A DNA stretch of 64,000 nucleotides from Ochrovirga pacifica (lineage in GTDB: Bacteria; Bacteroidota; Bacteroidia; Flavobacteriales; Flavobacteriaceae): NCBI RefSeq assembly GCF_000220525.1, contig NZ_AFPK01000029.1, positions 124,006-188,005 on the forward strand, read 5' to 3'. Positions within the stretch are counted from its first letter, which is position 1. Each line of letters starts with the position of its first letter. Below, one piece after another: positions 11,024 through 40,172 of the stretch. The translations under genes were made by a program, and so were the position numbers. Below the pieces are notes generated by a model, which did no database searches, was not told where the DNA came from, and saw nothing but the letters and a program-made list of their open reading frames with translations.

Positions 11024-11025
11024 AA

Positions 11026-11604: not shown

Positions 11605-11631
11605 CTTTATTTTGATATTTTGTGGTAAAAA

Positions 11632-12957
<1,326 letters not shown>

Positions 12958-12966
12958 TTATGCTGT

Positions 12967-13000: not shown

Positions 13001-13054
13001 TAAAATTGAATTGTTTCGAAAACCTATTCGTTAACAATGTACTTGGTTGAAGAT

Positions 13055-13085
13055 AAAAAAAGGCAGTGAAAAATCACTGCCTTTT
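13055..13085 (-). terminator. Terminator of the ExbB/ExbD operon
   Basis: The arms AAAGGCAGTGA and TCACTGCCTTT form a strong stem; on the minus strand it is followed by a T run. It starts within a few bases of the stop codon of the last exbD gene. Confidence 0.92.
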
Positions 13086-13088
13086 AAA

Positions 13089-13562: not shown

Positions 13563-13572
13563 ACGCTTCTAA

Positions 13573-14193
13573 TTATTTAATTGGTTTTGCATCGGCTAAA
13601 ATCTCTGGGTAAGCTTTCTTTACCTTTTCGATTGCAGCTTTTACATCTAAATTTTCTTTATCAGCTTTCTGAATTTTTAACAAGTCTTCGTAAGATAAAC
13701 CTCTATACTTTCCTGTTAAATATTTTCTTGCATATCTATTTCTTAATTCTGTATACGCAGCCAACAATTCATTTTGTACAGAAATATACATTCCGTAAGA
13801 AGTTGTTTGTGCTGTTTGAACAGAAATAATTGCCTTTGCGGGATGCTCTGAAGAAGACTCCTCTTTTGCTCCTTCACAGTAATCACAAATTTTTCCTTCT
13901 GCACTTCTTCCTGCACCGTTGTCTATAAAATCAATAGCCATTTGTCTTACGTCTGTAATCTTAGCGGGCTCGTCTTCTATTAACAATTCGTCAAAACGGT
14001 TGATGTTTACCTCAAAGATATTTCTTTGTTTAACATCGGGTTTTGGTGCATTTGGATCTGGTTTTTCAGGTAATTTTCTAAAGACACCCGAATCGGTATC
14101 CATAGTAGTTGTTACCAAGAAAAAGATAAGTAGCAAGAAAGCAATATCTGCCATAGAACCTGCATTGATTTCTGGTATATCTCTCTTTGCCAT
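13573..14193 (-). CDS. ExbD/TolR family protein, larger form with Cys-pair insertion
   Basis: This second ExbD homologue (206 residues) has one membrane helix with the functional aspartate Asp16 in MADIAFLLLIFFLV. Its periplasmic part is longer than the 157-residue neighbour's and contains an extra segment with a CDYC pair around residues 103-106 that could form a disulfide or bind metal. It lies 12 bases after the small membrane protein gene and 10 bases before the second exbD. Together with ExbB it should energise TonB-dependent uptake, or possibly another envelope process. Family assignment is secure. Confidence 0.92.
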   Translation of the reverse strand: MAKRDIPEINAGSMADIAFLLLIFFLVTTTMDTDSGVFRKLPEKPDPNAPKPDVKQRNIFEVNINRFDELLIEDEPAKITDVRQMAIDFIDNGAGRSAEGKICDYCEGAKEESSSEHPAKAIISVQTAQTTSYGMYISVQNELLAAYTELRNRYARKYLTGKYRGLSYEDLLKIQKADKENLDVKAAIEKVKKAYPEILADAKPIK

Positions 14194-14205
14194 ATCTGTT
14201 TATTA

Positions 14206-26200: not shown

Positions 26201-26309
26201 CCAAAAATACAGAGGAATTTCAACAAACCTACATCTACAAAAAATACAACACCCAATATACAAGTACGCAAAAATTGAAGTAAACAACTATACAGGTGTT
26301 CCTTATTAA
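23226..26309 (+). CDS. Large PTPS-related-type integral membrane protein
   Basis: This 1027-residue protein begins with about ten membrane helices (residues 1-400). Its start (KTYDALIHLFFAEHYANSW) resembles the 6-pyruvoyl-tetrahydropterin-synthase-related membrane family (PF10131), which has a GT-C-like layout with acidic residues in the first external loop. A soluble region follows to about 555, then one or two more helices (near 556-572 and 603-630). Next comes an NTF2-like domain (about 634-735) and two beta-rich domains of FxLYD type (about 777-855 and 896-963). Its position among glycosyltransferases, a hydrolase and a flippase suggests a role in glycan polymerisation or transfer; that is inference. 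It is two bases from the next gene. Confidence 0.75.
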   Translation: MKQSTNKYLITALLIGLIFHGAAMFFTIEKTYDALIHLFFAEHYANSWFEPWNFKWYTGFTVMSYPPLVHQSIALLSYIGGFKFGLFTVTLIAVVLFVTGAYRFSLLITANRSSAGFAAIIATLSSTFIETLHIFGQLPSIVGISILLHSLPEIYLWLKKGRIKYFFTSTSLIAVTVTSHHVTPIFGMVFFIFPLIGTTIIDYAAEKKGSVMKINFWDFLIGFKTLFPRIISFGLTSLFIIIFCMLPYWINSKNNPITQVPIPHGSRDNFLEITSSGLAFFLIPWGAVLFLLPYIFYRYYSKRYICFGLSISMLTLLGTGGTTPLPKMILGANAFNILTLDRFTLWAAIMSIPLIGEFIYRFTLTDIKELFQKKLGSIYHRFAGAFLALCFLAMAIFTISLGYFRPTQPKKIKMLPIINFLNQDHHDQWRYLTLGFGDQMAWLSTNTKALTVDGNYHSARRLPELTTRAVERLENSKFLGIEGIGSLQQFLTVPDKYNLKYVFSNDKFYDPLLYFCGWQRLRQLDNGVMVWEKLNVPPLSVILPRLDVATWQKIHWGTVPVSTVIFALLLNIRSVLTRTLKTKKTSNNEYLKEEYVARKIPWFLIVFKHLWAVLIIIISFYACYVFYIKNDSQKNPENAILTYYDALDFKRFEKAHSLLNPEHKISIAQYMLQIAVTDGLYSSYAKLDSIHITTLKQTDSTATVRVKTEWITSLQKIKDSCIHTLSKKKHQWYVNPEEQSKDLPPDQLFVENKPIFFNQGRRRVTTEQTYHEDVLKQPVLEILNAKLIKHNNRYSIIGEVQNIDNVPADVVLKGTLYNIFDEEVATYNAKDQTKHKLMPKETSSFKIDFEGTAWVNLDEKAPATFDPDLFTEIDTTKVPVKFNLQATGNVSGSDLYKKVAISDLKITDQLISGTLFNAGTAQSTIPQILISYYDEHQNICFVEDYYLTEGIRQQRKAFFSYNINQKEAELINHDMKNCFVNGLPNKSIVQSIQKYRGISTNLHLQKIQHPIYKYAKIEVNNYTGVPY

Positions 26310-26311
26310 TC

Positions 26312-27508
26312 ATGAAGTTTATTTTACGTTACATATTGTTCTTTTTTTTATTTAGCAGTACCGCTTATACACAGCAGATACAGCTTCTTTCTCCGCAACA
26401 AACCTATGTGGCTGGAAGCAACATTACACTAAAGTTTAAAAATCTAAAGAACACTTCTGCTCGTCTGTACATCAGCAACAGTTATGCTAATACAATAGTA
26501 GCTCCTACTGTAATCAACACTATGACTACCTATGCTCTTCCCAGCTTTATTACTAAAAAATCAGGATGGCTGTATTGGCGACTACAGACAGACCAACAAA
26601 CTATTGAAGGAAATTTAAAAATTCTTCCTGTTCAATTTACACATAAAATTGAGACTTATTTAGGTCCGCCTAGTATTGTTGTAGGTTTTGATGACAAGTC
26701 TATGTTAGTTACCATTCCATCCGACAGCCTTAACAATCCACTACTTCCCAACACAGCGGTAACAATTAAAAAAAGACTGCACAATCGTTTAGATTCTACA
26801 AACGTAAAAACAGACGGAATGATTGCTTATAAATACATTTACGGAAGTACCAAAGCGGGTAGAGCTTTATTAAGTGCCGAATGTCTTAACTTGACATCTA
26901 AAGAAATGAGTTTGGAAATTTTACCTGCTCCTCCTGTTGATTTTACTATTTCTTACCAAAGGGTTCACGAATATGCAGATGGAAACCAAATTACCAATTT
27001 TGAAACCGAGCCAATAACAGACCTATATGGCAATACAATTGCCGATGGAACGTTGGTAAACTTTAGCATAAAAAACAAAAGCGGAGTTTTGCTACAAACA
27101 CAAGCACCGACTATAAATGGAGTAGCCAATAGTCAATTAATACATCCAGACCATGAAGATTTATGGAATGTAAAGGCTTTTGTTGATGGCTTTAGTCAAA
27201 GTAATTTGCTAGAAATTCCATTTAAAAAGGCAATTGAGGATTTTAAAGCAATTTATCATCCTCATAAAAAATCTGTGACTGTAGGACCTTTTAAAAGCTT
27301 TATGAATCAAGTTTTGCCCGACGGATTGATTGTTCACTTGACATTATCTCACAAAAATCAACTTTTAAAAACCTTTACCCAACAATCTGAAAAAGGATTT
27401 GTTACTTTTAATCTAAAAAATTTTGTTGGCCCCAATAAACAATACAACATCCGTATAGAAACTGCGGAACTAGTAAAACATTTAGAGATTGAAACCTATG
27501 ACAATTAG
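26312..27508 (+). CDS. Secreted Ig-like (invasin/Big_1-like) protein
   Basis: This 398-residue protein has a signal peptide (cleavage probably after residue 20-21, before QQIQLLSP) and then appears all-beta. One segment, TDLYGNTIADGTLVNFSI near residues 236-253, looks like a bacterial Ig-like domain of the invasin/Big_1 type. There is no lipobox cysteine and no sorting domain, so it is probably periplasmic. It starts two bases after the giant membrane protein gene and overlaps the GH5-like gene by 11 bases, so the three are co-transcribed. It may bind or guide a glycan chain. The function is unknown. Confidence 0.7.
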   Translation: MKFILRYILFFFLFSSTAYTQQIQLLSPQQTYVAGSNITLKFKNLKNTSARLYISNSYANTIVAPTVINTMTTYALPSFITKKSGWLYWRLQTDQQTIEGNLKILPVQFTHKIETYLGPPSIVVGFDDKSMLVTIPSDSLNNPLLPNTAVTIKKRLHNRLDSTNVKTDGMIAYKYIYGSTKAGRALLSAECLNLTSKEMSLEILPAPPVDFTISYQRVHEYADGNQITNFETEPITDLYGNTIADGTLVNFSIKNKSGVLLQTQAPTINGVANSQLIHPDHEDLWNVKAFVDGFSQSNLLEIPFKKAIEDFKAIYHPHKKSVTVGPFKSFMNQVLPDGLIVHLTLSHKNQLLKTFTQQSEKGFVTFNLKNFVGPNKQYNIRIETAELVKHLEIETYDN

Positions 27509-29018
27509 CCTTCATAAAAACGCCATAAAAGCCTTGTTAGTTTTAAGTTACATTAGCCTATCTATGGTAATTGTAGTAGGGTTAAGTGCAGTGCTTACCT
27601 ACCTAAATACTGGAGCAGATAGGAATATTATGCTACATAATAAAATCCACGAAACCATCCATTACCAACCCACTATTCAATGGAACACTGAGCACAACTT
27701 AGGAAGAGCAATGGATGATTTTACCCTACAAAAAATTGAAAAAGATTATTTAAACGCATGGTATGTAAAACACATTGCTTTTTATAAAAACACCTCTAAA
27801 GGACTAAAAGATTATTATACCAAGAGTGCTTTACAAACTTTATTGTCTGGTATTGAGTTCAACCAACAAAACAATATTCACATCAATGCAACGACTTTAA
27901 ACCACCATACAACTCTAGATTTTTTTAGTGAAGACGGACAGCTTGTCGTATTAACAGATCACAACGTAAAGGAATTTAAGCAAGTTTATACTGATAACCA
28001 AATTCAGACCAACACTACAGAAATTAACACCTATAAAGTTCTACTGCTTTTAGAAGATGCTTTTTGGAGAATTAGACACATTGTAAAAGTACAACCCACC
28101 CAACAGCATATAAGTCAGCATCCAACTGTAAAAATAGATTACAATATAAAGGGGATTAATTACTACCCACAAAATACTCCTTGGGACATGTTTGGTGATG
28201 AATTTGATCCAAAAATTATTGCTAAAGATTTTGATATTATTCGACAAGCAGGCTTAAATACCATCCGTATTTTTATACAATATGAAGATTTTGGAAAATC
28301 CGAAGTCCTTTCTGATAAAATTAAAAAACTACAAACGGTATTAAATCTTGCCGATCAAAAGCAGTTAAAAGTAATTCCTACTTTGTTTGATTTTTATGGA
28401 AATTACGATGTATTGGACTGGACACTAAACAACAAACATGCAAAAACAATTGTTAAAGCCTGTAAAGACTATAGTGCTCTATTGGCTTGGGATATTAAAA
28501 ACGAACCCAATCTAGATTTTGAATCTAGAGGAAAAGAACGTGTTTTGGCGTGGTTGGCACAAATGATTGCTGTGGTAAAAAATGAAGACTCTGTTCATCC
28601 AGTAACCATTGGATGGTCTAATGTAAAAAGTGCTACTCTTTTAGCAGACAAGGTAGATTTGGTAACTTTTCATTACTACGAAGATTTAAACTCACTAGCC
28701 ACAAAACACCAACAGTTACAAAAAGAAATTCCCCATAAAAAAATAATTTTAGGGGAATTTGGTCTTTCTTCTTATCGTGGTTTGTGGAATCCTTTAGGAC
28801 ATTCTGAAACAGACCAAGCAGAGTACCACAAAAAATTTCAGGAAATAGCCCAACAAAATGGTATTGATTTTCTTTCTTGGACTTTGTACGATTTCACCAA
28901 AGTTCCTAGTTCGGTTGTAGGAAAACTTCCTTGGCGAAAACATCAGCAAAAACATTTTGGTTTTATTGACAAAAACAAAAAACAAAAAAAATCATTTCAA
29001 TACATTGCTAAACCTTAG
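27498..29018 (+). CDS. Membrane-anchored GH5-like glycoside hydrolase with NTF2-like domain
   Basis: This protein has 506 residues from the ATG at 27498; a TTG three codons upstream is less likely. It has one membrane helix (about residues 11-36), an NTF2-like domain (about 75-200), and a TIM-barrel glycosidase domain of the GH5/clan GH-A type (about 215-506). The acid/base is probably Glu336 in KNEPN and the nucleophile Glu420 in ILGEFG. The enzyme should face the periplasm. Polysaccharide export loci often contain a glycosidase that trims or releases the polymer, which would suit this context. The linkage cut cannot be deduced. The stop codon overlaps the stop of the convergent GT4 gene by four bases. 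Confidence 0.82.
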   Translation: MTISLHKNAIKALLVLSYISLSMVIVVGLSAVLTYLNTGADRNIMLHNKIHETIHYQPTIQWNTEHNLGRAMDDFTLQKIEKDYLNAWYVKHIAFYKNTSKGLKDYYTKSALQTLLSGIEFNQQNNIHINATTLNHHTTLDFFSEDGQLVVLTDHNVKEFKQVYTDNQIQTNTTEINTYKVLLLLEDAFWRIRHIVKVQPTQQHISQHPTVKIDYNIKGINYYPQNTPWDMFGDEFDPKIIAKDFDIIRQAGLNTIRIFIQYEDFGKSEVLSDKIKKLQTVLNLADQKQLKVIPTLFDFYGNYDVLDWTLNNKHAKTIVKACKDYSALLAWDIKNEPNLDFESRGKERVLAWLAQMIAVVKNEDSVHPVTIGWSNVKSATLLADKVDLVTFHYYEDLNSLATKHQQLQKEIPHKKIILGEFGLSSYRGLWNPLGHSETDQAEYHKKFQEIAQQNGIDFLSWTLYDFTKVPSSVVGKLPWRKHQQKHFGFIDKNKKQKKSFQYIAKP

Positions 29019-30193
29019 CCTTTGCTTTTTATTTTTTTAAAGTTTTGCACATACATATCTGCAATGGTGGTCATAGGATACGCTGTAGCTGCTTGGTAAT
29101 TGGCTTTTCCTAATGCTATTCTATACGATTGATCTTCTGCGATTTTTTGAATCGCATCTGCCAAACTGCTTACATCGGTAGGATTAAAAAATTCTCCTTT
29201 GTAACCTTCGTCTTTTATTAACAAAGCCAAATCACCTAAATCTGGCATCACTACTGCTTTCCCATAACTCCCCGCTTGATGCAAAACTCCAGAACTTCCT
29301 GTGGTAGAGGTATATGGAAACACCACCACTGCACTGTTTTGAAAAAGAGGAGCTACTTGATTTTCTTCTACATAGCCTGTAAAACGCAAACCTGAAACAT
29401 TTTTGTATTGCTCTTGTACTCCTGCCAAATACCCAGGTACATTAGGGTTATCTGTTCCTGCAATCACAACTTCCAAATCCAAATTGGTTCTTTTCCTTAT
29501 CATTTCTACAGCTTCAATCATCATTTCTACTTTTTTGTAGGTTCCAAATTTTCCAAAAGCCATTATCTGCAATGGTCCCTCGGGTGTATGATACGTAGGT
29601 GTTTCGGGAATTTCAAAAGTTCCATGCGGAATTAAAATCACGTTGTTTACTTTGTACTTTGCTGTTAACACATCTACATATTTTTTTATGGTTACAGCAA
29701 CCATATCTGCTTGTAAAATAAGTTTGGTTAGCGTAGTACCTATAAATCCATAAATAGATTGCATTAACTTATTAGAAGTAAATCCTGCAGTTCCTAAATC
29801 TACTTCTTCCATAATGTTATGTAACAAAACCATTGTAGGAATTTTTTTCATTTTTAAAAACCATGGCAACATTAACCCCATGGCTGCTACTACTTTTTTA
29901 TCACCAAACTTCATAAACTGTAAGTTGAACAATACAGCATCGGGTTTGGTTTCTTTTACTGCTTTTTTTACCGTTTTAATATTTCCATAACTATTAAATT
30001 CCCAACATTCTTTTACCGTAATTTTACAGCCAGATTCCTTAAAATCTAAATCCTTGGGTTCCGTAGTTGTATCTGTTAACAAAATTAATTCTGATAGTTC
30101 TTGGTGTTGTCTAAAACTCTTTACTAAATGGTAAGCATACTCATTCAACGTAATTTTACTAGGTGGATAGGCAGTTACAATAGCTAATTTCAT
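29015..30193 (-). CDS. Family 4 glycosyltransferase
   Basis: This 392-residue protein has the GT-B layout of family 4 glycosyltransferases: N-terminal MKLAIVTAYPPSKITLNEYA, the donor-site segment AFGKFGTYKKVEMMIEA near residues 212-228, and the later VVFPYTSTTGSSGVLHQAGSYG with its acceptor/donor loop. It probably adds a hexose to a lipid-linked glycan on the cytoplasmic face. It lies downstream of the flippase gene (97-base gap) on the same strand. Its stop overlaps the GH5-like gene's stop in a shared TTAG. Confidence 0.9.
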   Translation of the reverse strand: MKLAIVTAYPPSKITLNEYAYHLVKSFRQHQELSELILLTDTTTEPKDLDFKESGCKITVKECWEFNSYGNIKTVKKAVKETKPDAVLFNLQFMKFGDKKVVAAMGLMLPWFLKMKKIPTMVLLHNIMEEVDLGTAGFTSNKLMQSIYGFIGTTLTKLILQADMVAVTIKKYVDVLTAKYKVNNVILIPHGTFEIPETPTYHTPEGPLQIMAFGKFGTYKKVEMMIEAVEMIRKRTNLDLEVVIAGTDNPNVPGYLAGVQEQYKNVSGLRFTGYVEENQVAPLFQNSAVVVFPYTSTTGSSGVLHQAGSYGKAVVMPDLGDLALLIKDEGYKGEFFNPTDVSSLADAIQKIAEDQSYRIALGKANYQAATAYPMTTIADMYVQNFKKIKSKG

Positions 30194-30290
30194 ATGTGTG
30201 TTTATTTTTTTTTTCTAAAATTAAAATGTTTGTTTAACCCGGAGTTTTCTACTCGACTAAATGCTATTTATTATAGATGAACAGAAAGTA

Positions 30291-31538
30291 TCAAGCGTTT
30301 TTTTTAACTTGCTGTGTACTATCCCAAGTAAAAAAGAGTAGTTGAATCAGCAACAAAGAAAACATAGCAATCATCTGCATATGCACTACTTGCTCTAAGG
30401 TATTGTGATATAAAAAAATTAACAAAACTTGCAATCCACCAAAAACAGCAGAAACAACAACAGGTAAGTACCGATCTAACGATAAAAAGTAGTAAGCAAA
30501 AATATTTGCTACAGCAAAAACTCCTGTAGCAAAAGCATATTTCCACATTAAAGGGGCTATAGACACATAAGCATTTCCAAACAATAATTGCACTATTAAC
30601 ACCGGATACAACTTACACACTATAATAATTAAAAACGCAATAACCGAAATATAAACCACATATTTGGCCAGAACTTTTGCTGTTTTCTTACCTTCTTTTT
30701 TTAGTTGTACTACAGTGGGTAACAACAACATTACAAACATCCAAGCAATAAAGTATACAATTCTACCAATCAACGCTAAAGAAGCATATAGCCCGGCCGC
30801 ATGAGGTTCAAAATAATGTTTTACTAGTAAGATATCACTATTGTTTATAATAATTTGAGACAGTTCATAAAAAGCGGTAATTGCAAAAAAATGCCTGATG
30901 TTCTTAAATTCCTCTACTGGAAAATTTGCTTTAAATTTAAAATAGTTCTGATTGAATTTAAATGGAAACAAACCCACAAACAAAGAAATTAAAACCCCTA
31001 AAGCAATTACCTCTGATGAACGATTAGGAAACAAAAACACCAACAAAAGCGTAATTCCTAATCTCGAAAGCATTTCTGTTTGATATGTGATAGACAGCAA
31101 TTTGAACTCTTTTTTCCCTTGATACATCCCTCTGTTTACACTCATAAAAAAATACAAAGGGATTCCTATTCCAAAAATGGTAAACATATTTGCTGTTGTG
31201 GTATGAAAAAGTTCTTGCAATTGCGGAGCAAATACTACTACCATTGCTCCACAAAAAATGCCTACTATGGCTGCATTTTTATAGACCTTACTTACAAAAA
31301 CATCAAAATAATCTGTAGGAATGGTTACCGAAAACTTGGCAACCACCAACTGAAATGTCATGGCTACAAAAGAAAGAATCAAGAGCATCGTAATGAGAAT
31401 GGCAGCATCAGAAAATTGTGCGGGACCTAGAATTCTTCCTAACAAAAGATTGTACAGATAATTTCCTCCATTCACCACCAAGGCACTTAACATAAATAAG
31501 TTTTCCTGGCTTAGAATTTTGCTTTTTGTAGACAACAT
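30291..31538 (-). CDS. Oligosaccharide flippase-type membrane protein (Wzx/MOP superfamily)
   Basis: This 415-residue protein is strongly hydrophobic, with about twelve membrane helices, and resembles polysaccharide flippases that move lipid-linked or nascent glycans across the inner membrane. The N-terminal region NGGNYLYNLLLGRILGPAQFSD is typical of the family. It precedes the GT4 gene and is divergent from the TPR/beta-barrel gene, with 157 bases between them. The combination of flippase, GT4 and a TPR-barrel exporter recalls the Pel-type layout (PelG, PelF, PelB), but I cannot claim homology to those proteins. Confidence 0.85.
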   Translation of the reverse strand: MLSTKSKILSQENLFMLSALVVNGGNYLYNLLLGRILGPAQFSDAAILITMLLILSFVAMTFQLVVAKFSVTIPTDYFDVFVSKVYKNAAIVGIFCGAMVVVFAPQLQELFHTTTANMFTIFGIGIPLYFFMSVNRGMYQGKKEFKLLSITYQTEMLSRLGITLLLVFLFPNRSSEVIALGVLISLFVGLFPFKFNQNYFKFKANFPVEEFKNIRHFFAITAFYELSQIIINNSDILLVKHYFEPHAAGLYASLALIGRIVYFIAWMFVMLLLPTVVQLKKEGKKTAKVLAKYVVYISVIAFLIIIVCKLYPVLIVQLLFGNAYVSIAPLMWKYAFATGVFAVANIFAYYFLSLDRYLPVVVSAVFGGLQVLLIFLYHNTLEQVVHMQMIAMFSLLLIQLLFFTWDSTQQVKKNA

Positions 31539-31695
31539 AGCAAGCTTTTTTTATTTTTAGTTCTAAATTTACAACAAAGATTTTTTATTTCTAGGTGATT
31601 TTTTTTGATATTCGTTAAACTGTAATTTTTACCCGACGAGTTACTTATTTCCCTTAGATATATGTAAATTGTTTCAAAAAAGAAACCCAAGCCCT

Positions 31696-33786
31696 ATGAA
31701 AAAAGCTCCTATTATTTTTTTCCTATTTTCTTTGATTTTCACCTCTGGATTTTCTCAAAACATGAAGCAAGGTTTTACTTATTTAGAGACAGGAAAATAC
31801 GCACTTGCAGAAACTTTTTTTGAAAAAACTCTTAAAGAATATCCCAATAACAAAACTGCTAAACTCTGTTACGGTAGAGCCGTAGGTTTAAACGGCAATG
31901 CCAATAAGGCTGTAGGTATTTTTACAGAAATGTTAGCAACCTATCCTAACGACTTTGAAATTGAGCTTAATTATGCAGAATCTTTATTATGGAGCAAACA
32001 ATACAACAAAGCTGAAAGTTATTATCAAACACTAGTTGCTAAAGACTCCAAAAGTTTTGCAGCACTTTTAGGATATGCAAATACCCTTTCTAACCTAAAA
32101 AAATACAATGATGCTCTTAACTATGTAAACAAAGCCCTAGAAGTATTACCAGGAAACCCGAACGCTTTGGTCTCTAAAAAATACATGTATTTGGGATTGG
32201 CTAATGAACAAGCACAAAATCAAAATTACCAAGAAGCAATTGCCACCTTAAAAAAAGATTTACTATTGTTTCCTAATGACAAAGATATCCTATTAAATTT
32301 AGCCAATATATACATTATAGCAAAGGAGTACAACCAAGCCGAAAGCTTGTATGTAGCAATGAAAAAAGACAGTTCTTTATATTTTACTGCTAAAAACAGT
32401 TTGTCTTTGGTAGCACACCTTAAGGAAAAGGATAAAAAAGCACTGAAAATTAGTGATGAGACATTAAAAGAGTTAACAGAAAACACTAATGAAAAGGATA
32501 CAAAACAAACGCAAGAAAGATATGCTCAGGCATTGATATGGAATGGACAATACCGAAAAGCCAAAGAATATATTCATAAAATCGAGTATGGAAAAGAAAA
32601 CGAAAATTGGATTTTGGGTTTAAAAGCTACACTTTATACTTACACAGGAGATTTTGCCAACAGCTTAGACTTGTACAATCAAATTTTAAAAAATGATATT
32701 GCTTCCTTCGACGGAAACCTAGGTAAAGCCAATGCATTAAAAGCCAACAACAAAATAAAACTTGCATTATCAGCTGCCGAAACTACTTTGGAACATTTTC
32801 CGAATCAAAAGGATGCATTAAACTTTATCAAACAAGTAAAAATAAACTATCTGCCTACGTTACACACCAGAGTTAGTCATAGTTTTGATAATGGAGAAAG
32901 TAAAAACAACACCTATCAACTTGCTCTAAATTTGCCTGTAAGTATAAAAACAGAAATTATTGCTTCTTTGGAACAAAAAGATGCTAAAAATGATGTTACA
33001 GATAACGAAAGCACCTCCGAAACCATTAATCTTGGGCTTTCATATCAATTATTCCCAAAAGTAAACCTATCAGGAACACTGGGAGTTAATCGTGTAGAAG
33101 GAACCGCTAAAGGCATTAAAAATGAATACGAACAAACTACTGCTTTGATTCAATTTAAAACAACTCCTTTTAAACGTCAATTGCTAGATTTTGGTTACAA
33201 AAGAGAAACGCAAAACTTTAACGCAGAGTTATTGAATCAAGAAATTGTTCAAAACAACCTGTTCTTAAACTACAATCTAAACACGACTTTTAGATTGGGT
33301 TGGTTTACGCAGTATTTCTATACTTTTCAAAACGATTCTAACAAAAGAAATCTTTTGTTTACATCCTTGTATTACAATTTTGTTAAAAAACCTGCTATTA
33401 AGGGGGGAATTAACTTTCAGTATTTAACGTTTAAAAATCAGGTACCTACAGTGTACTTTAGCCCTTCCTCATTTAAGGCTGTAGAATTGTTTATTAACCT
33501 TATAAAAGACAAGGCTATTGCCAAAGACAATCAACTTTTTTACGGATTAACAGCTGCTTATGGTTATCAATATACAGAGCAAAATCCCAAAACAAGCTCT
33601 TACCGTGTGCAAAGCAATCTTGGCTACAAGTTTAATGACTTCTGCTATTTAGAAGCATATCATACCATAAGTAGTATAGCTCCTATTGCGGCTGTAGATA
33701 GCTCCAATGGGTTTGAGTACAACGAACTTGGACTTAAGTTTTTATGGAAATTTACCGAAAAACCTCTATTTAGGTCACTACAGTAG
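31696..33786 (+). CDS. TPR-repeat protein with C-terminal outer-membrane beta-barrel
   Basis: This 696-residue protein (ATG at 31696; an in-frame TTG at 31669 is rejected because the signal peptide starts at 31696) has a signal peptide ending near SGFSQ. About ten tetratricopeptide repeats follow (residues 23-390; for example GFTYLETGKYALAETFFEKT). The C-terminal 310 residues form alternating beta strands like a porin. This is the architecture of polysaccharide exporters such as BcsC, PgaA and PelB: a periplasmic TPR scaffold and an outer-membrane pore. It is therefore the likely exit channel of the glycan locus. Its 3' end overlaps the convergent LytTR gene by 9 bases. Confidence 0.82.
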   Translation: MKKAPIIFFLFSLIFTSGFSQNMKQGFTYLETGKYALAETFFEKTLKEYPNNKTAKLCYGRAVGLNGNANKAVGIFTEMLATYPNDFEIELNYAESLLWSKQYNKAESYYQTLVAKDSKSFAALLGYANTLSNLKKYNDALNYVNKALEVLPGNPNALVSKKYMYLGLANEQAQNQNYQEAIATLKKDLLLFPNDKDILLNLANIYIIAKEYNQAESLYVAMKKDSSLYFTAKNSLSLVAHLKEKDKKALKISDETLKELTENTNEKDTKQTQERYAQALIWNGQYRKAKEYIHKIEYGKENENWILGLKATLYTYTGDFANSLDLYNQILKNDIASFDGNLGKANALKANNKIKLALSAAETTLEHFPNQKDALNFIKQVKINYLPTLHTRVSHSFDNGESKNNTYQLALNLPVSIKTEIIASLEQKDAKNDVTDNESTSETINLGLSYQLFPKVNLSGTLGVNRVEGTAKGIKNEYEQTTALIQFKTTPFKRQLLDFGYKRETQNFNAELLNQEIVQNNLFLNYNLNTTFRLGWFTQYFYTFQNDSNKRNLLFTSLYYNFVKKPAIKGGINFQYLTFKNQVPTVYFSPSSFKAVELFINLIKDKAIAKDNQLFYGLTAAYGYQYTEQNPKTSSYRVQSNLGYKFNDFCYLEAYHTISSIAPIAAVDSSNGFEYNELGLKFLWKFTEKPLFRSLQ

Positions 33787-34551
33787 ATTAAGTCTTTTCA
33801 TCAGCTCAGGTCTGTTAGATCTGCTTACAGGAACTACATCTTTCTTTATCAATACACTATTATCTTCAATATCAATAATCTTTTTGGTATTGATAATGTA
33901 AGACCTATGTACTTTTAAGAACAAATCCTCAGGAAGTTTTTCTTCTATTTTTTTCATGGTAGAATGCACCACGTAGTTTTTTTCCTCTGTTTTAATTTGG
34001 ATGTAATCCCCTTTTGCTTCCACCAAATAAATACTTGAAATATTAATTTTCACCAACCTTCTATCAATATTTACATACAGGTCTTTTCCTGGTGATTTGC
34101 TATGTTGAGAAACATCAGCCGTTCCTTCATCGGCCACTATGTTAATGTCTGCAGATTTTACTGATGGCTGTACTACAGGTTCTGTTTGTTGAACTGCATT
34201 AGATATTTTCTGTACTTTTTGAATCGCTTTTAAAAATCTAGGCAATTCTAACGGCTTTACAATATAATCTACAATACAATCGTATTCAAAAGCATCTATT
34301 GCAAAATTTCTATCAGAAGTTATTAAAATAATTTGAGGTGGATTTTTTATGGTTTGGATAAAATCAAAACCTGTAAAATCTGGCATATGAATGTCCAGAA
34401 AAATCAAATCAACATGATTTTGATTTAAAAATTTAATTGCCTGAATAGCATTTGGAAATTCTTCTAAAACTGTTAAATTTTCTTGTACACCACAAAGTTT
34501 TCTTATCAGTAATCTAGACGTTGCATCGTCATCAATAATAATACAGTTCAT
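33778..34551 (-). CDS. LytTR-family response regulator
   Basis: This 257-residue protein has an N-terminal receiver domain (about residues 1-120; acidic pocket DDD at 7-9, phospho-acceptor Asp53 in FLDIHMPDF, Lys in YIVKPLELP) and a C-terminal LytTR DNA-binding domain (about 158-257). It should bind DNA when phosphorylated. It is the last gene of the seven-gene sensor operon, 9 bases after the Hpt gene, and is the natural output of the phosphorelay. Its end overlaps the TPR-barrel gene of the glycan locus. Target promoters are not known; see the inverted repeat near 40116-40172. Confidence 0.93.
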   Translation of the reverse strand: MNCIIIDDDATSRLLIRKLCGVQENLTVLEEFPNAIQAIKFLNQNHVDLIFLDIHMPDFTGFDFIQTIKNPPQIILITSDRNFAIDAFEYDCIVDYIVKPLELPRFLKAIQKVQKISNAVQQTEPVVQPSVKSADINIVADEGTADVSQHSKSPGKDLYVNIDRRLVKINISSIYLVEAKGDYIQIKTEEKNYVVHSTMKKIEEKLPEDLFLKVHRSYIINTKKIIDIEDNSVLIKKDVVPVSRSNRPELMKRLNLL

Positions 34552-34560
34552 ATATTTTTT

Positions 34561-34878
34561 TTAGAGCGATGCCAAAAAGTCCGTCATGTTTTGTAGCGTT
34601 TTTTCAAACTCCGCTTGTTTTTCAAAACTATGCTCTCTTAAATTTTCTTCGTAGACCATCGCAGTTTTATAACTTTCTTCTAAACCCAATATACTAATTT
34701 TATGTTTAATTTTATGAACTATTTCTGCAATACCTCTGTAGTCTTTTACTGCTAGTGTTTGATGGTATGTAGCTACCTCTGTTGGAAATTCTTTTTGGAT
34801 TACCTGAATCATTTCTTTTTGAAAATCAGCATCTCCGCCAGAAATTTCTTTGATATAATTTAGGTTAGGCTGTTCCAT
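34561..34878 (-). CDS. Stand-alone Hpt phosphotransfer protein
   Basis: This 105-residue helical protein has the histidine phosphotransfer signature around IVHKIKHKISILGLEES, with His55 the likely phospho-site. Hpt proteins pass phosphate between two receiver domains. Neither kinase in the operon has its own receiver, so the Hpt would work between the free CheY-like receiver (39603-40016) and the LytTR regulator. It starts 3 bases after the kinase gene and is followed by the LytTR gene after 9 bases. Confidence 0.88.
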   Translation of the reverse strand: MEQPNLNYIKEISGGDADFQKEMIQVIQKEFPTEVATYHQTLAVKDYRGIAEIVHKIKHKISILGLEESYKTAMVYEENLREHSFEKQAEFEKTLQNMTDFLASL

Positions 34879-34881
34879 GTT

Positions 34882-35925
34882 TTATTTTTTTAGTGTAAAA
34901 AAGAAAGTAGTTCCTTTATCCAATTCAGATTCCGAACGAATTGTTCCTCCATACAACTCTACAATTCTCTTTACAATAGAGAGTCCAAGTCCTATAGATT
35001 CTGGATTGTTCTCAAGCTTAAAAAAGGCTTTAAAAATTTTATCTAAGTAAGGGGCTTCTATTCCTTTTCCGTTATCTTTTACGTAAAATTCGTACAAGTT
35101 TATCTTGTCATTAAACCCAATTTCAATAACCCCTCTTTCTTTATCATTGTAGTTGATAGCGTTTACAATTAAGTTCTGAAACAATTGCTGCATACGGTGT
35201 CTATCTCCATTAACTATCGGTAACTTTTTAGGTATTTTTATCTGAATATGATTAGGTAAATCTACATAAGTTAGCAGTTCTCTTACCAACAAATCTAAAT
35301 CTACATCATAGGTTTTATGATCGCTTTTACTTACAGTAGAATACTCTAAAATTCCTGTAATTAAAGCATCCATTTTTTCTACATTTTTTCTAATCAACCC
35401 TAAAGTTTCTCTTCCGTTCTCATCCAACACTTCTGAATAGTCTTCTATCAACCATGAAGCTAAAGCATCTACACTTCTTAAAGGAGATTTTAAATCGTGA
35501 GAAACAACATGAGCATACTCGTTTAATTCCGTATTTTGATGCTCTAATTCCTTTAACAACTGATCTCTTTTTTTGTTAATATGCACAATTTCTTTGGCTT
35601 GTTGTTCTATTAAGCTAGACAAATCGTTATGATGGCTGTTTTCCTCTAACTCTTCTTCATCTGCCCCTTTTAGAACACCTATGACACGTTTTAGCTGTTG
35701 TATAATTTCTTGTTGCTTTTCCGCATCTAGTTTTAGTTGCTCGTTGGCATCGTTCAGTTCGTTAGAGCTTAACATCATCGCCCTTTGTAACATACCAAAC
35801 TGTTCTTCGTAATTTTCGTAAGATTTACTGATAGCGTCAACAAACTTTTTAAATCCCGGATTCTCATCCAAGTTCAGCTCGTCTATTCCGTATTGTTTTA
35901 ATTGTCTTCTTAGTAATGAATTCAT
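34882..35925 (-). CDS. Cytoplasmic HisKA histidine kinase next to FIST
   Basis: This 347-residue kinase has no membrane helix and no PAS domain. Its first 130 residues are predicted coiled coil. The HisKA box is SHDLKSPLR with His143, followed by N-box NLIVNAINY, G1 DNGKGI and G2 ESIGLGLSI, so it looks active. From the His to the C-terminus it is exactly as long (205 residues) as the PAS kinase at 37067-39043, indicating duplication. Its ATG overlaps the stop of the FIST gene by one base. Soluble kinases encoded beside FIST/NosP proteins are often controlled by them, so regulation by the neighbour is a reasonable inference. Confidence 0.93.
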   Translation of the reverse strand: MNSLLRRQLKQYGIDELNLDENPGFKKFVDAISKSYENYEEQFGMLQRAMMLSSNELNDANEQLKLDAEKQQEIIQQLKRVIGVLKGADEEELEENSHHNDLSSLIEQQAKEIVHINKKRDQLLKELEHQNTELNEYAHVVSHDLKSPLRSVDALASWLIEDYSEVLDENGRETLGLIRKNVEKMDALITGILEYSTVSKSDHKTYDVDLDLLVRELLTYVDLPNHIQIKIPKKLPIVNGDRHRMQQLFQNLIVNAINYNDKERGVIEIGFNDKINLYEFYVKDNGKGIEAPYLDKIFKAFFKLENNPESIGLGLSIVKRIVELYGGTIRSESELDKGTTFFFTLKK

Positions 35926-37058
35926 TATTCGCTCAGTAGTGTAAGGGTGATGGTTTGATTGTGAAGTTTACATTTAGACTCTCCGTTAAAAGGAACTATT
36001 TCTCCGTAGGAATAAAAACCACAGAGCACTGTGTCTTTTTCTACACCGTTTTTTACATTTTCCATCTCCTCTTCTACTCGTTGATCTAAGACCAATTTAC
36101 GCCCTATACAACTTACAAAAAGAACCATTTCTGCTTTTTGCGTTCTTCCCATATTAGCAAGTTCTATGGCTTTTTCGGATGCATAAGCCAAATTATCTAC
36201 ATTGCTCATCATCAAATGGACTTTGGACTGCTCTTTTATATCTCCTGCTAGAATAATAGATTTTTCTGCTTCATCAACCCCTAAAACACTTCTTACAATA
36301 GATTGTTCTTCCTCACTGGTTAGAACATCTAACGGATATAGTAGTGCCGAACTAGGCAACTCTTTAGACTTATCACCTAAATACATCTTATAAAGATCTA
36401 GGGCCGGCTTTCCATCTAACTCGTACAACACATTTCCTTTTGATTTGGTTACAATTCTCTGAGGTCCAAATCGTGTCCAACCTCCTGAACTAGAAAAAGA
36501 AACCTCTAAAGATTCTCCGTACAAACCAACAGCAACAATTTCTCCTTCTTTTGCCTCTTGATTGTAAGACACCAATGTTTTTTCAAAGCGATCTGCATCC
36601 CCACACATACCTCCTGTTACCAAAGCTTTTTCTGTGTTTTCAGATTCAATTCCTTCTGTTAAACTACTCCCATTAACAAAACTTCCTTCGGAAATAATAA
36701 TTACATGCTTTAGTCCTTCTTTAGGAAACTGTTCCATAAGCTCTTTTCCTGCTTTGTAACTATCTTCTTCAAAATCTAGGATGTTACTTGTTTTGATTAG
36801 AAATGTTGATTTTTCAAACTCAATTGCTGTCGCAATAGGATTGTTTTCTTCTAATGCATTGTTAGAAACTTGTCCACAGGCAGAACCTATAACAATGTGT
36901 CCATTGGGATATATTTCTTTAAGCTCTTTGCACACTGGATTCGCTTCTAAAACTTTGCGATCTCCAAAAACTAAAATCAAAGGTTCTTTTAAAACTTGCT
37001 TGTTTCCTATAAAGTCCCATGTTCCTTTACTGCTTCTTTTTAGTTGTGCTTTTTTCAT
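35925..37058 (-). CDS. FIST-domain sensor protein (NosP-like architecture)
   Basis: This 377-residue soluble protein consists of FIST_N (about residues 25-220, with IVIGSACGQVSNNALEENNP and TGGMCGDADRF) and FIST_C (about 222-370, ending GFYSYGEIVPFNGESKCKLH). FIST is a small-ligand sensory module. Some FIST proteins, called NosP, bind heme and nitric oxide and regulate an adjacent histidine kinase. Here the gene lies between two histidine kinase genes and in the same operon as an H-NOX protein. Whether this particular FIST binds heme cannot be read from sequence; it could bind another ligand. It starts 8 bases after the PAS kinase. Confidence 0.9.
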   Translation of the reverse strand: MKKAQLKRSSKGTWDFIGNKQVLKEPLILVFGDRKVLEANPVCKELKEIYPNGHIVIGSACGQVSNNALEENNPIATAIEFEKSTFLIKTSNILDFEEDSYKAGKELMEQFPKEGLKHVIIISEGSFVNGSSLTEGIESENTEKALVTGGMCGDADRFEKTLVSYNQEAKEGEIVAVGLYGESLEVSFSSSGGWTRFGPQRIVTKSKGNVLYELDGKPALDLYKMYLGDKSKELPSSALLYPLDVLTSEEEQSIVRSVLGVDEAEKSIILAGDIKEQSKVHLMMSNVDNLAYASEKAIELANMGRTQKAEMVLFVSCIGRKLVLDQRVEEEMENVKNGVEKDTVLCGFYSYGEIVPFNGESKCKLHNQTITLTLLSE

Positions 37059-37066
37059 ACTTAAAG

Positions 37067-39043
37067 TTACTTTTTTAGTGTAAAAAAGAAAGTTGTTCCT
37101 TTCCCTAACTCACTCTTTAACCATATTTTACCTTTGTGTAATTCTACAATCTTTTTTACTATAGAAAGGCCTATCCCAGAGGAATCTTTTCTTTTGTGTA
37201 AAGAATTAAAAATCTCAAATATTTTATCAAAATAAGCTTTGTCAATCCCTATTCCATTGTCTTGAACAGAAAACTGATGGTAATCTCCTACCTCTTTGTA
37301 AGCAATGTTTACAATACCTTGTTCTTTATCACTAAATTTGATGGCATTGCTTAATATGTTCTGAAACACCTGTTGCAATTTTACTCGATCCCCCATTACT
37401 TTAGGGAAACTTGTATCAAATTGTACCTGAATATGTTCTGGAATATATAGAATTGTAATTAAATCATCTAATAACAACTGAATGTCTACATTTTGATCTA
37501 ACTCTAAATTTGCACCTACACTAGAATATGCCAACACATCAGAAATTAAGCATTCCATCTTTTCTAACGTTTTTTCAACCAAATCAAAGTTTTGAAGTGT
37601 CATTTCGTCTAACTTTCCTTGGTTATCTTCCTTAATCCAAGTGATTAGTGCATCTATACTTCTTAATGGTGATTTTAAATCGTGGGATACCACATGTGCG
37701 TACTCCTGTAGATTTTCATTACTTTTTTCAAGTTCGTTTAACAATTCTTCTTTTTGATTTTCTAGAGCTTTTAAATTGGTGATGTCGTAATTAATACCAA
37801 TAGTTCCTATAAAATCTCCGTTTAAATTGTAGTTAGGTGCCCCACTAAACAGCCAGTATCTTTTTTCTCTTTTTTTATTTAGAACTACAATCTCAAAAGA
37901 ATCAGAAAGTCCGTCTTTTCTTTTTCCAACGTAATCTTTTTGGTCTGCAGCTCCAAGCAATAGTTTTACTCCGTTTTTACCAATCAATTCTTTTTTGCTG
38001 TAGCCAGACATATCCATAAAGCCTTGGTTTACAAAAACAATATCGTTATTTAGGTCAAACTCTACCAAGCCTAAATTCATATTATTGATAATGTTGCTGT
38101 ATTTTTGCCTTTCGGCTTCTAAACTTTTTTGGTATTTTCTATGCAGTGTAATGTCTCTAAAGTTCCACAAATGTCCTTTGTAAGTGTTGTCTTTTATAAT
38201 AGGTACATATTGTCTTTTGTAAATGCTTCCGTTAGCAAACTCCACTTCATCTTCAAAAAGTTGTTCTTTATTTTGAATGGTGTGATTGGTTTCCGTTAAA
38301 AAATTTGGAGACACTCTTTTTAAAACTCCTGAAGCCAAAATAACCTCCATGTAACTTTTTCCAATCAGATCTTCTAAATCGTCTTCAATTCCCAATAAAT
38401 TACAAAAATTTTGGTTGGTAAGTACAATTTCATCGTGTTCGTTTTCTAACAAAACACTGGTTTCCAAATTCATTAGCAAAGTAGACATTCTTGCTTCAGA
38501 TTCTATCAAATCTAACTCCGCTGCATTTTGCATCGTAATGTCTCTTAAAATACCTTGGGCTGCAATCGGTTTATTGTTCTCGTCATAAATAATACTCGCA
38601 TTTACTTGAGCTAGTATTTTTTTATTTTTTTTTGTGACAAGTTTCGTTCTAAAGTTTGTAATTCTACCTGTATTATATAATATCTGAAAAGAATTTGCAA
38701 TGTGTTCATATTCTTCAGGAAGCGTTAGTTTCATTAAATTTAACACACCATCTTCGTTAATCTTATAGCCTAAGACTCCTTCGGCAGCTGCGTTCATTTT
38801 TATAACATTCCCAAATAAATCCATCATAATGTATGGATCTACAATATTTTCAAAAACTCCTTTAAGCTCAGAGTTTTTTATTTTTAATAGTGCTTCTACT
38901 TTTTCTTTAGAATCTTTGTGCTTTTTATTAAGTTCGTATAGTTCTGCAGATTTTTTTTCTAGAATTTCTTCAGCCTGTTTTCTTGCTGTACGTTCTCTGG
39001 CAAGTGCTCTTTTTAATACTTCAATTTCATTATTAGCAATCAT
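37067..39043 (-). CDS. PAS-domain sensor histidine kinase next to H-NOX
   Basis: This 658-residue soluble kinase has an N-terminal coiled coil (about residues 1-52), three PAS domains (about 55-175, 180-300 and 312-430) and a HisKA/HATPase core. The core shows SHDLKSPLRSI with His454, N-box NILSNAIKF, G1 DNGIGI and G2 SGIGLSIVKK, all intact. H-NOX proteins commonly inhibit or control a co-encoded kinase; this gene starts 15 bases after the H-NOX gene, so it is the likely partner. Its FIST neighbour follows after 8 bases. No membrane segment is visible, so the complex should be cytoplasmic. Confidence 0.94.
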   Translation of the reverse strand: MIANNEIEVLKRALARERTARKQAEEILEKKSAELYELNKKHKDSKEKVEALLKIKNSELKGVFENIVDPYIMMDLFGNVIKMNAAAEGVLGYKINEDGVLNLMKLTLPEEYEHIANSFQILYNTGRITNFRTKLVTKKNKKILAQVNASIIYDENNKPIAAQGILRDITMQNAAELDLIESEARMSTLLMNLETSVLLENEHDEIVLTNQNFCNLLGIEDDLEDLIGKSYMEVILASGVLKRVSPNFLTETNHTIQNKEQLFEDEVEFANGSIYKRQYVPIIKDNTYKGHLWNFRDITLHRKYQKSLEAERQKYSNIINNMNLGLVEFDLNNDIVFVNQGFMDMSGYSKKELIGKNGVKLLLGAADQKDYVGKRKDGLSDSFEIVVLNKKREKRYWLFSGAPNYNLNGDFIGTIGINYDITNLKALENQKEELLNELEKSNENLQEYAHVVSHDLKSPLRSIDALITWIKEDNQGKLDEMTLQNFDLVEKTLEKMECLISDVLAYSSVGANLELDQNVDIQLLLDDLITILYIPEHIQVQFDTSFPKVMGDRVKLQQVFQNILSNAIKFSDKEQGIVNIAYKEVGDYHQFSVQDNGIGIDKAYFDKIFEIFNSLHKRKDSSGIGLSIVKKIVELHKGKIWLKSELGKGTTFFFTLKK

Positions 39044-39058
39044 AAAATAACTCGGGTT

Positions 39059-39595
39059 CTATCGGATTACTATAAATTTCACCTCCGTACCGTCTTCCTT
39101 AAGTTTTTCACAGGTTATTTCTGCTTCTTGTCCAAAAACCTTAAAGGTTTGCTGCATCAAACCTTTTCCTAACATGTATAAACCTTTGTCCGATTTGTAT
39201 ATCATTTCTAATCTATTGTCTGATTTATCTACAATCTCAAAAGTTGGAAGCTGAGCATCTGGATATATTTTTTGAACCTCTACATGAATATGTCCTTCAA
39301 TAGATGCTAATAAATCCATAGGATCTTTGTAGTGTTTAACCAAGTCTGGATGAGATTTAGTAAGCCCTGCAAACAAGTGTTCTGAAAAGACCATAAGCAA
39401 GTCATCGGCAGGAATTGAAGTGTTTTGGCTTAAGTTGGTTAGCAATTGTAACATTTCGGAAAAGTCATAAGTACCAATAGATGTATACGCACCTCCCGAC
39501 TCTAATTCTGATTGGTTGATAATTTGGTCAACCATAGTCAGACCAAATTTTTCTTCAACAAGTTCTAAAAATTCAGTAAAAATGATTCCTTTCAT
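39059..39595 (-). CDS. H-NOX (heme-NO-binding) domain protein
   Basis: This 178-residue protein is a stand-alone H-NOX sensor, the bacterial relative of the soluble guanylate cyclase heme domain. The proximal heme ligand is His104 in HIHVEVQKIYP, seven residues before Tyr111 as in the family. The heme-propionate motif YxSxR appears as YKSDK (Tyr133, Ser135, Lys137), with lysine in place of arginine. It should bind b-type heme and NO and pass the signal to the PAS kinase encoded 15 bases downstream. It starts 7 bases after the CheY-like gene. Family assignment is strong; ligand selectivity is inferred. Confidence 0.92.
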   Translation of the reverse strand: MKGIIFTEFLELVEEKFGLTMVDQIINQSELESGGAYTSIGTYDFSEMLQLLTNLSQNTSIPADDLLMVFSEHLFAGLTKSHPDLVKHYKDPMDLLASIEGHIHVEVQKIYPDAQLPTFEIVDKSDNRLEMIYKSDKGLYMLGKGLMQQTFKVFGQEAEITCEKLKEDGTEVKFIVIR

Positions 39596-39602
39596 AGCTA
39601 TA

Positions 39603-40016
39603 TTATACGCTGATTAATTGATTTTCACTCCAATAAGATATCAATACTTTTATTTTAGAAACATAATCTTCATATTTTAAAGGCTTTATAACATACCCCG
39701 CTATTCCAATTTTATAACACTCTAGCAAATCTTTTTTGTTATTAGAAGTACTTAATATAATAGTAGGTATGTACCTTAAAACTTCGTCCTTTTTTAGTAT
39801 TGATAAAAATTCTATACCATTAATTTTTGGCATATTTAAATCTAGCAAAATAATATTAGGCAGCCTATCTTTTTGCTCTAAAAATTTCAGAGCTTCTTCA
39901 CCATTAGCAGCATTATGGACCTTGTGATTTAAGTCCAGTACAGACAAAGCTCTTTTGAACTTCATCACCTCAATAGTATCGTCTTCAATAAGAAGTATAT
40001 TTAACAATGGCTTCAT
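39603..40016 (-). CDS. CheY-like single-domain response regulator
   Basis: This 137-residue receiver (from the ATG at 40016) has the acidic pocket EDD at residues 11-13, phospho-acceptor Asp59 in LLDLNMPKI, and Lys in VIKPLKYED; there is no output domain. I prefer the start at 40016 over an in-frame ATG at 40100. The domain begins exactly there, and a TATTTTTG promoter element at 40041-40048 lies downstream of 40100. It is the first gene of the H-NOX/FIST operon and may be the intermediate receiver between the kinases and the Hpt protein. Confidence 0.92.
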   Translation of the reverse strand: MKPLLNILLIEDDTIEVMKFKRALSVLDLNHKVHNAANGEEALKFLEQKDRLPNIILLDLNMPKINGIEFLSILKKDEVLRYIPTIILSTSNNKKDLLECYKIGIAGYVIKPLKYEDYVSKIKVLISYWSENQLISV

Positions 40017-40048: not shown

Positions 40049-40115
40049 AATATAGAATGGCAATATTGTATCTTTTATCGATATCACCAGCATAAACCAT
40101 AGACGAAATGCATTT

Positions 40116-40172
40116 ATCTGTCGACGAATGAATTTCTCATCATTTAAAGACTAAAAATTCGTTTGTCGATAG
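40116..40172. repeat. Imperfect long inverted repeat upstream of the sensor operon
   Basis: The left arm TCGACGAATGAATTT (40121-40135) matches the reverse complement of the right-hand segment at about 40154-40168 at 13 of 15 positions. A related GACGAAATG copy at 40102 lies 21 bases before the left arm. Half-site spacing of about two helical turns is usual for LytTR regulators, and TTCGTTTGT at 40158 fits the published degenerate LytTR nine-mer at eight of nine positions. Binding is unproven. Confidence 0.45.

Follow-up and report, generated by a model that had tools for sequence, protein, structure and literature searches.

Conserved genes for a proposed modular phosphorelay with two sensors in Flavobacteriaceae, with a predicted operator of LytTR type and candidate targets among polysaccharide and secreted-protein genes

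In a 64,000-nucleotide stretch of the Ochrovirga pacifica genome (contig NZ_AFPK01000029.1, positions 124,006 to 188,005; hereafter the window), a minus-strand operon at 33778-40016 joins two sensor proteins, H-NOX and FIST, each followed by a soluble histidine kinase, with a CheY-like response regulator, an Hpt phosphotransfer protein and a response regulator carrying a LytTR output domain. Comparison with relatives in the Flavobacteriaceae suggests that these genes encode a soluble, modular, two-input phosphorelay in which both sensors feed one LytTR output and in which FIST and its kinase form an optional cassette, an explanation to which, taken whole, we assign a probability of about 0.7. 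The gene order, the kinase N-terminal modules, the relationship of the kinase cores, the catalytic residues, the operator and the genes behind it are all read from the sequences themselves.

All seven genes are intact, and from the first regulator to the last they are separated by 7, 15, 8, -1, 3 and 9 bases. The initial annotation, made from the letters of the window, had described a seven-gene minus-strand operon with gaps of at most 15 bases, in which two unrelated sensor families each precede an intact soluble kinase of their own, and a single Hpt and a single LytTR regulator stand behind both pairs; the Pfam domains and coordinates agree with this description throughout. In 5' to 3' order, the predicted operator, the genes and their modules are:

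40094-40132, minus strand: predicted LytTR operator of the operon, a direct repeat with a period of 21 bp, unit 1 intact and unit 2 degenerate
39603-40016, minus strand: stand-alone CheY-like response regulator (RR; Response_reg, 78 bits), predicted to hold the first Asp of the relay
39059-39595, minus strand: H-NOX (HNOB, 127.4 bits against a Pfam cut-off of 25.5)
37067-39043, minus strand: histidine kinase 1 (HK1), soluble, H-NOX partner (PAS, HisKA and HATPase_c)
38894-39043 (limits approximate), minus strand: n1, the N-terminal module of HK1 (H-NOX-type reader), from a profile of 113 HK1
35925-37058, minus strand: FIST sensor (FIST N, 134 bits; FIST_C, 110.4 bits)
34882-35925, minus strand: histidine kinase 2 (HK2), soluble, FIST partner (HisKA and HATPase_c, no PAS match)
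35581-35925 (limits approximate), minus strand: n2, the N-terminal module of HK2 (FIST-type reader), from a profile of HK2 proteins
34561-34878, minus strand: Hpt phosphotransfer protein (Pfam Hpt, 25.5 bits, barely over the cut-off of 24.6)
33778-34551, minus strand: response regulator with receiver (REC) and LytTR domains, the output (LytTR, 75.6 bits; Response_reg, 67.4 bits)

The start of the stand-alone RR is our own choice, 40016 being preferred to the listed open reading frame start at 40100 because the distance to the operator fits. The source genome (3.4 Mb, 77 contigs) holds a single H-NOX match and a single FIST match, and the nearest named relative that we found for the window H-NOX comes from Wenyingzhuangia (78% identity).

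The arrangement is widely conserved. In a census of 299 genomes of the family, whose 108 H-NOX sites were annotated with profiles grown from the window genes, the exact seven-gene order occurred at 48/108 sites and the same order minus FIST and HK2 at 35/108, so that the check on gene order in relatives proposed in the initial annotation comes out clearly on the side of conservation and a one-off assembly of unrelated parts is ruled out. Among 17 further sites from a phylum-wide sample, three had the exact order and two the exact order with an extra kinase. H-NOX was found in 104 of the 299 genomes, FIST in 86 and both in 67; FIST was thus present in 67/104 genomes with H-NOX vs 19/195 others (odds ratio 16.8), a co-occurrence whose p-value overstates independence since the genomes are related. 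At 57 of the 108 sites a FIST gene lies on the same strand within 12 kb, in 56 of these 1.3-2.7 kb downstream. Three loci (L025, L027, L029) duplicate others (L075, L116, L046) and are counted twice in the totals of 107, 111, 113 and 137 loci used below, while the count of 100 Hpt operons of sampled genomes is free of duplicates; locus L248 was left out of the analyses.

The same parts also occur in other arrangements. At L129 (G275, 7470-14198), an NtrC-type regulator, FIST, H-NOX and a single HNOBA-PAS-kinase-REC-Hpt protein stand in a row, with both sensors before one kinase. Genomes without an H-NOX match contain clusters of three to four FIST genes of ~380 residues (G247:C68:172600-176945, G092:C15, G283:C7, G124:C1, G101:C1), and L237 (G138) and L238 (G005) each show the same RR-kinase-Hpt-LytTR relay, with its operator, in a genome without an H-NOX or FIST match.

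FIST and HK2 behave as a unit. Of the 100 Hpt operons, 58 contain FIST, and in all 58 a kinase follows directly. As HK2 is defined as the kinase behind FIST, kinases lacking FIST were looked for separately, and in 41 of the 42 FIST-less operons no n2-type kinase was present in the stretch. The exception, L054 (G080), combines an H-NOX with Tyr at the heme-ligand position and an HK2-like kinase without FIST, and is possibly a decaying system. On the H-NOX tree, the distribution of FIST is one of repeated loss or gain, requiring 24 changes (shuffled mean 35.4), at least four of which are forced by well-supported branches. In the FIST tree, 63 of 66 operon proteins fall in one clade, which is separate from the sampled FIST proteins linked to hybrid kinases and includes two relocated copies (L165, L166); these relocated FIST-kinase pairs come from genomes (G073, G002) whose H-NOX operon has no FIST. 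The remaining three operon proteins (L026, L079, L132) lie far outside the clade and belong to another FIST subfamily. The N-termini of their HK2 differ by eye and score, in that order, none, 29.6 and 40.7 bits against n2 (126.2 in the window), L079 and L132 being themselves in the n2 training set, and the kinase cores of L026 and L079 still fall within the HK2 group (L132 was not drawn). We read these three as cases in which sensor and reader were exchanged together, the least tested of the points that bear on the cassette.

The two kinases begin with different modules, and these track the neighboring sensor. Since n1 and n2 were trained on operon kinases (113 HK1 in the case of n1), their whole-set figures of 125/131 and 65/66 are mostly by construction, and the evidence lies in kinases that were not used for training. 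Among these, n1 matched 12 of 18 kinases adjoining H-NOX in other architectures, and n2 matched 14 of the 15 kinases that follow FIST genes in L158-L172 (12 hybrid kinases), one of the matching kinases (L167) being also a weak n1 match; no kinase was obtained from L063, a fragment, or from L161, a contig end with FIST only. Among the operon kinases, n2 was found on no HK1 and n1 on no HK2.

Behind these modules, HK1 and HK2 share one kind of core. Searched against the window genome, the HK2 core matched 18 places, with HK1 the best after HK2 itself (215.5 bits) and the next at 121.6 bits. A tree of 71 kinase cores grouped HK1 with HK2 and kept both separate from 12 FIST-hybrid kinases and from 16 further kinases that the genome encodes, and a single clade of HK2 and the 12 FIST-hybrid kinases was rejected (approximately unbiased test, p-AU 0.0006). 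HK2 looks like a FIST-type reader placed on an HK1-like core. This tree covered 16 operons (11 long rows were dropped by name, L026 and L091 were not drawn, and the HK1 of FIST-less operons were omitted along with unrelated kinases of the loci); an earlier tree of 117 rows drew on 32 of the 66 FIST operons and 15 of the 48 FIST-less ones. A natural exchange of HK1 and HK2 cores, seen in a tree at L069/L139, we do not claim, since BLAST scores fail to confirm it, only L085 and L118 appearing odd, and then marginally. Because the N-termini track the sensor and the cores are shared, two inputs into one output are supported, which sustains the circuit part of the dual-input NO or redox integrator envisaged by the initial annotation; its heme and NO part we infer.

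Neither HK1 nor HK2 contains a receiver domain detectable with Pfam, and standard phosphorelay chemistry places a receiver between kinase and Hpt; for these reasons we assign that position to the stand-alone RR. It is present in 111/113 Hpt operons, and HK1 is non-hybrid in 113/113, all six loci with a hybrid HK1 lacking an Hpt gene. The four phospho-acceptor sites of such a relay are all present, including a receiver besides that of the LytTR protein, and they are nearly invariant: the kinase His motif in 112/113 HK1 and 66/66 HK2, the phospho-Asp of the stand-alone RR in 125/125, the phospho-His of Hpt (His55) in 113/113, and the phospho-Asp of the RR-LytTR protein (Asp53) in 110/110.

The two kinases could instead serve insulated pathways with little convergence, HK1 using the stand-alone RR and HK2 the Hpt-LytTR branch, or the reverse. 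Kinases of one operon can be insulated, the cores of HK1 and HK2 fall into sub-clades of their own, and an HK1 is barely closer to the HK2 of its own operon than to that of another (218.6 vs 214.7 bits; the median rank fraction is 0.35), so that co-evolution of the two kinases within operons, considered as a candidate, gave no clear signal. However, five-gene operons retain the RR, Hpt and LytTR genes with HK1 alone, which suggests that HK1 uses all three, and HK2 has an HK1-like core and no receiver of its own. We therefore consider insulated pathways improbable, and favor the convergence of both kinases on one relay.

Turning to the signals, H-NOX most likely senses nitric oxide (NO). Its predicted heme ligand, His104, is His in 135 of 137 aligned proteins. 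The YxSxR motif, which we take to be the H-NOX propionate motif, reads YKSDK in the window; its Tyr and Ser are kept in 136/137, and position 137 is Arg in 123 and Lys in 12, the window having Lys. At position 71, presumably a hinge, the window has Ser, and 123/137 have Gly or Ala. The best PDB matches by sequence are 6bdd and 6bde, which we take to be structures of Kordia algicida H-NOX; this closest solved relative differs from the window protein at Ser71 and at the Lys that replaces the Arg of YxSxR. A Kordia H-NOX is named in PMC7356049.

For FIST, we propose NO, heme or another small ligand. Three residues, Cys317, Cys363 and His366, do not vary across the 54 FIST proteins aligned, which come from operons or are unlinked (L026, L079, L132 and L170 being left out). 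An AlphaFold model (predicted local distance difference test 93.1, predicted template modelling score 0.91) best matches the fold of FBXO22, and also ring-hydrolase folds; by sequence, no PDB relative was found at E 0.001. Against the NosP equivalog NCBIfam NF041558, the window protein scores 52.5 bits and misses the cut-off of 450, as do five unlinked FIST proteins (66.7-90.4 bits), and its clade stands apart from the sampled FIST proteins linked to hybrid kinases, making the label 'NosP-type' used in the initial annotation too strong. FIST may thus be a sensor of heme or a small metabolite and not of a gas, in which case the operon would join NO, through H-NOX, with a different signal. The low NosP score and the fold matches point this way, as do the title of a Burkholderia NosP paper, which concerns heme detection, and the three divergent operon FIST proteins, which by eye read NKT where others read HNQT. 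On the other side stand the heme-binding, NO-sensing FIST proteins reported in PMC12570481, and the invariance of the two Cys and the His. We regard a non-gas FIST as a serious possibility somewhat short of even odds.

Upstream of the operon lies the 21-bp-period repeat that we predict to be the operator of its LytTR regulator. The unit approximates ACCATTCGTC(G/T)ACACTTA, and the format is that of two 9-bp repeats, 12 bp apart, with an ACC start (a 9-12-9 direct repeat); the system thus combines REC and LytTR domains with a predicted site of 9-bp direct repeats at 12-bp spacing upstream of its operon, as a LytTR system should. Six-letter self-matches upstream of 111 operons peak at 21 bp (252 vs 23 shuffled), and the word CCATTCGTC lies upstream of 54 of these 111, with ~0.1 expected. 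In the window, the operator pattern at up to 3 mismatches has one match (0 in 100 shuffles), and a position weight matrix (PWM) scores it at 28.7, vs 3.1 at the next best window position and at best 7.6 in the 8 of 20 shuffled windows listed; the shuffles worked on single bases or on two-base blocks rather than on full dinucleotide chains, and the PWM was built from operon operators, so that their own hits are partly circular. With a PWM threshold of 10 for operator calls, an operator stands before 106 of the 107 operons whose gene run includes LytTR, vs 7 of 18 H-NOX loci without LytTR (two of the seven, L073 and L139, run off the contig), and before none of 575 internal operon genes. In three genomes, the operon has neither LytTR nor an operator, and a strong operator stands before an RR-LytTR pair elsewhere (L229-L231).

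Across the 299 genomes, a strict pair pattern occurred at 145 places, vs 3 for the reversed control. By genome, operator pairs were found in 74/104 with H-NOX vs 18/195 others, a partly circular comparison; counting off-promoter pairs only, the figures were 43/104 vs 18/195, and with same-strand pairs up to 40 kb downstream or 20 kb upstream also set aside, 24/104 vs 18/195 (p 0.0015), all of these statistics ignoring genome kinship. The pairs in 18/195 genomes without H-NOX, and the operators kept at 7/18 loci without LytTR, might mean that the repeat belongs to another regulator and that its link to LytTR is incidental. Against this, in five of the eight H-NOX-less genomes fetched out of these 18, the stretch includes such a LytTR gene with RR, kinase or Hpt genes next to it, and in two of the other three, operators precede flippase and glycosyltransferase family 4 (GT4) genes. 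Furthermore, operator absence tracks LytTR absence, and the repeat length and spacing equal the LytTR format reported in PMC6193735. Another regulator is in our judgment very unlikely, and we retain LytTR as the regulator predicted to bind the repeat.

Beyond the operon itself, operators recur in relatives before genes for a secreted DUF6923/type IX secretion system (T9SS) protein (40/45), a TolC-like protein named by eye (3/4), UDP-glucose dehydrogenase (8/12), a CAP protein (4/6), GT4 glycosyltransferase homologues (14/25), a chain-length protein (6/14), a STAS protein (5/15) and flippase homologues (9/31), at a comparison rate of 49/583 before other genes. In a test not chosen by operator, the window genome contains two clear homologues of the secreted protein, of which the better (830.6 bits) is preceded, ~109 bp upstream, by an operator that scores 13.6. 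Next to the operon, the window holds a predicted polysaccharide locus:

31669-33786, plus strand: TPR protein, its C-terminal part barrel-like by eye (TPR matches), with a predicted role in polysaccharide export
30291-31538, minus strand: polysaccharide flippase (Polysacc_synt_3, 60.6 bits), whose homologues are predicted regulon members
29015-30193, minus strand: GT4 glycosyltransferase (Glyco_trans_1_4, 72.8 bits), whose homologues are predicted regulon members
30247-30285, minus strand: weak operator candidate, 92 bp upstream of where the glycosyltransferase gene starts (PWM 0.4, under the threshold of 10)
23226-29018, plus strand: three more predicted polysaccharide-locus genes (1027, 398 and 509 aa), without a Pfam match

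The distance of 92 bp is close to the family median of 100.5. The TPR protein is a weak PgaA match (53.2 bits, cut-off 366.65) with a homologue near 59/113 operon loci, and none of 43 TPR homologues has an operator before it. The 509-aa protein is a weak glycosidase match (23.9 bits) with homologues near 23/113 loci. By eye, one of the three genes at 23226-29018 has many membrane-like segments and one is glycosidase-like. A ~395-residue receiver protein of another family, starting MK(I/V)LAIDDQQLVLLPL, also has an operator ~120 bp upstream (L244:2348-3526, L246:3859-5043, L235:3-953) and is a possible further target regulator. Missed in the initial annotation, the operator and the predicted polysaccharide targets would give the system an output.

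We chart the following model. H-NOX would set the activity of HK1 through the HK1 N-terminal module, and FIST that of HK2 through its different module. Because one kind of kinase core is common to both, HK1 and HK2 would phosphorylate the same stand-alone CheY-like regulator, from which the phosphoryl group would pass to Hpt and on to REC-LytTR (His-Asp-His-Asp). Phosphorylated LytTR would then bind the 21-bp-period tandem repeats before its own operon, resulting in autoregulation, and before the genes for the secreted T9SS protein and polysaccharide. By analogy with known H-NOX and NosP kinases, NO-bound sensors might inhibit the kinases and so lower LytTR phosphorylation and polysaccharide, a sign for which we see an even chance. 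The ligand, the direction of phosphotransfer, the sign and the phenotype in this model are our proposals.

Several points weigh against this model. The HK1-HK2 node, with support of 92/85, is not starred, same-operon kinase pairs barely stand out, and other kinases or Hpt partners may exist elsewhere in the genome. FIST misses the NosP cut-off, and the PWM hits carry the circularity noted above. The target families were first noticed through operators before their members, so that their rates are descriptive only. In the window, the flippase has no operator over threshold and the glycosyltransferase a weak site only, and for the second secreted-protein homologue (278 bits) no pair on the same strand exceeds the threshold (the best scores -3.3). 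A relaxed scan of the window genome allowing 3 mismatches gave 5 pairs vs 5 in the reversed control; a genome-wide regulon by pattern was abandoned on that account, and the candidates at C44, C7 and C49:39219 are not claimed. Finally, NosZ is not enriched with H-NOX across the 299 genomes (39/104 vs 103/195, odds ratio 0.54). A link to denitrification had been considered, as upstream genes in relatives resembled a nos cluster by size, and was dropped: in L024 they are RuvC, HemN-like, cyclase, DUF4230 and YjbR genes.

Judged from its sequence, the system is probably a modular phosphorelay with two sensors, conserved among relatives, whose operator is of LytTR type and whose candidate targets are polysaccharide and secreted-protein genes. 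It is a variant on sensor-kinase-Hpt circuits that are already known. Joint control by NosP and H-NOX has reportedly been studied in Shewanella. In Vibrio, H-NOX/HqsK and NosP/VpsS feed LuxU-LuxO (PMC6769237), and there too a soluble sensor acts on a soluble kinase, and a single Hpt and a single transcription regulator receive input from several kinases. Unlike in the window, those kinases are hybrid and share Hpt with quorum-sensing kinases, and the described input to LuxU is H-NOX for V. harveyi and NosP for V. cholerae, whereas a single window operon unites the two sensors with a separate receiver, Hpt and LytTR. Single genomes with both families are known in V. cholerae and Legionella (PMC8738867); in Legionella, two H-NOX proteins and one NosP belong to separate genes and pathways, those characterised having cyclic di-GMP (c-di-GMP) outputs (PMC8738867). 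Pseudomonas NosP-NahK-HptB (PMC12997753) and Burkholderia NosP-NosK (PMC12570481) likewise place a FIST protein beside a kinase, with Hpt downstream in Pseudomonas and no recognised sensor domain in NosK, but the window kinase is non-hybrid with an HK1-like core, its output is LytTR, and its FIST lies under the NosP cut-off. LytTR regulatory systems with autoregulation share the repeat length, the 12-bp spacing and the ACC start of the 9-12-9 direct repeats (PMC6193735), although a membrane inhibitor, not a phosphorelay, controls those regulators.

The initial annotation had called the system undescribed. This stands only in part, since FIST near hnox is in print as a statistic for group 1 of an H-NOX genome-neighborhood network (PMC8738867, section 10), which takes in Bacteroidota and has Cellulophaga and Runella among its members (PMC7108781), and genomes with both sensors are known. 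The text consulted there describes neither the anatomy of the operon nor its modules, operator or targets, and in the open-access literature we found no account of the operon relay, modules, operator or regulon.

These results place the H-NOX and FIST proteins of the family in a predicted circuit and supply an operator and candidate targets for it. The presence, absence, relocation and apparent exchange of sensors over ~100 sampled operons make sensor-kinase pairing and core sharing directly testable, and the short operator lets the output be probed by gel shift and reporter. We give even weight, for and against, to the wider proposal that Flavobacteriaceae and relatives use a direct transcriptional NO/heme relay over surface polysaccharide and a secreted protein, with a second input entering through a chimeric kinase that sets a FIST-reading N-terminus on a copied H-NOX-kinase core, such that the FIST-HK2 plug-in could be lost, moved or swapped for another FIST subtype with the output untouched. 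This would suggest that NO-type signals also act on polysaccharide through transcription, in addition to the c-di-GMP pathways described for Proteobacteria.

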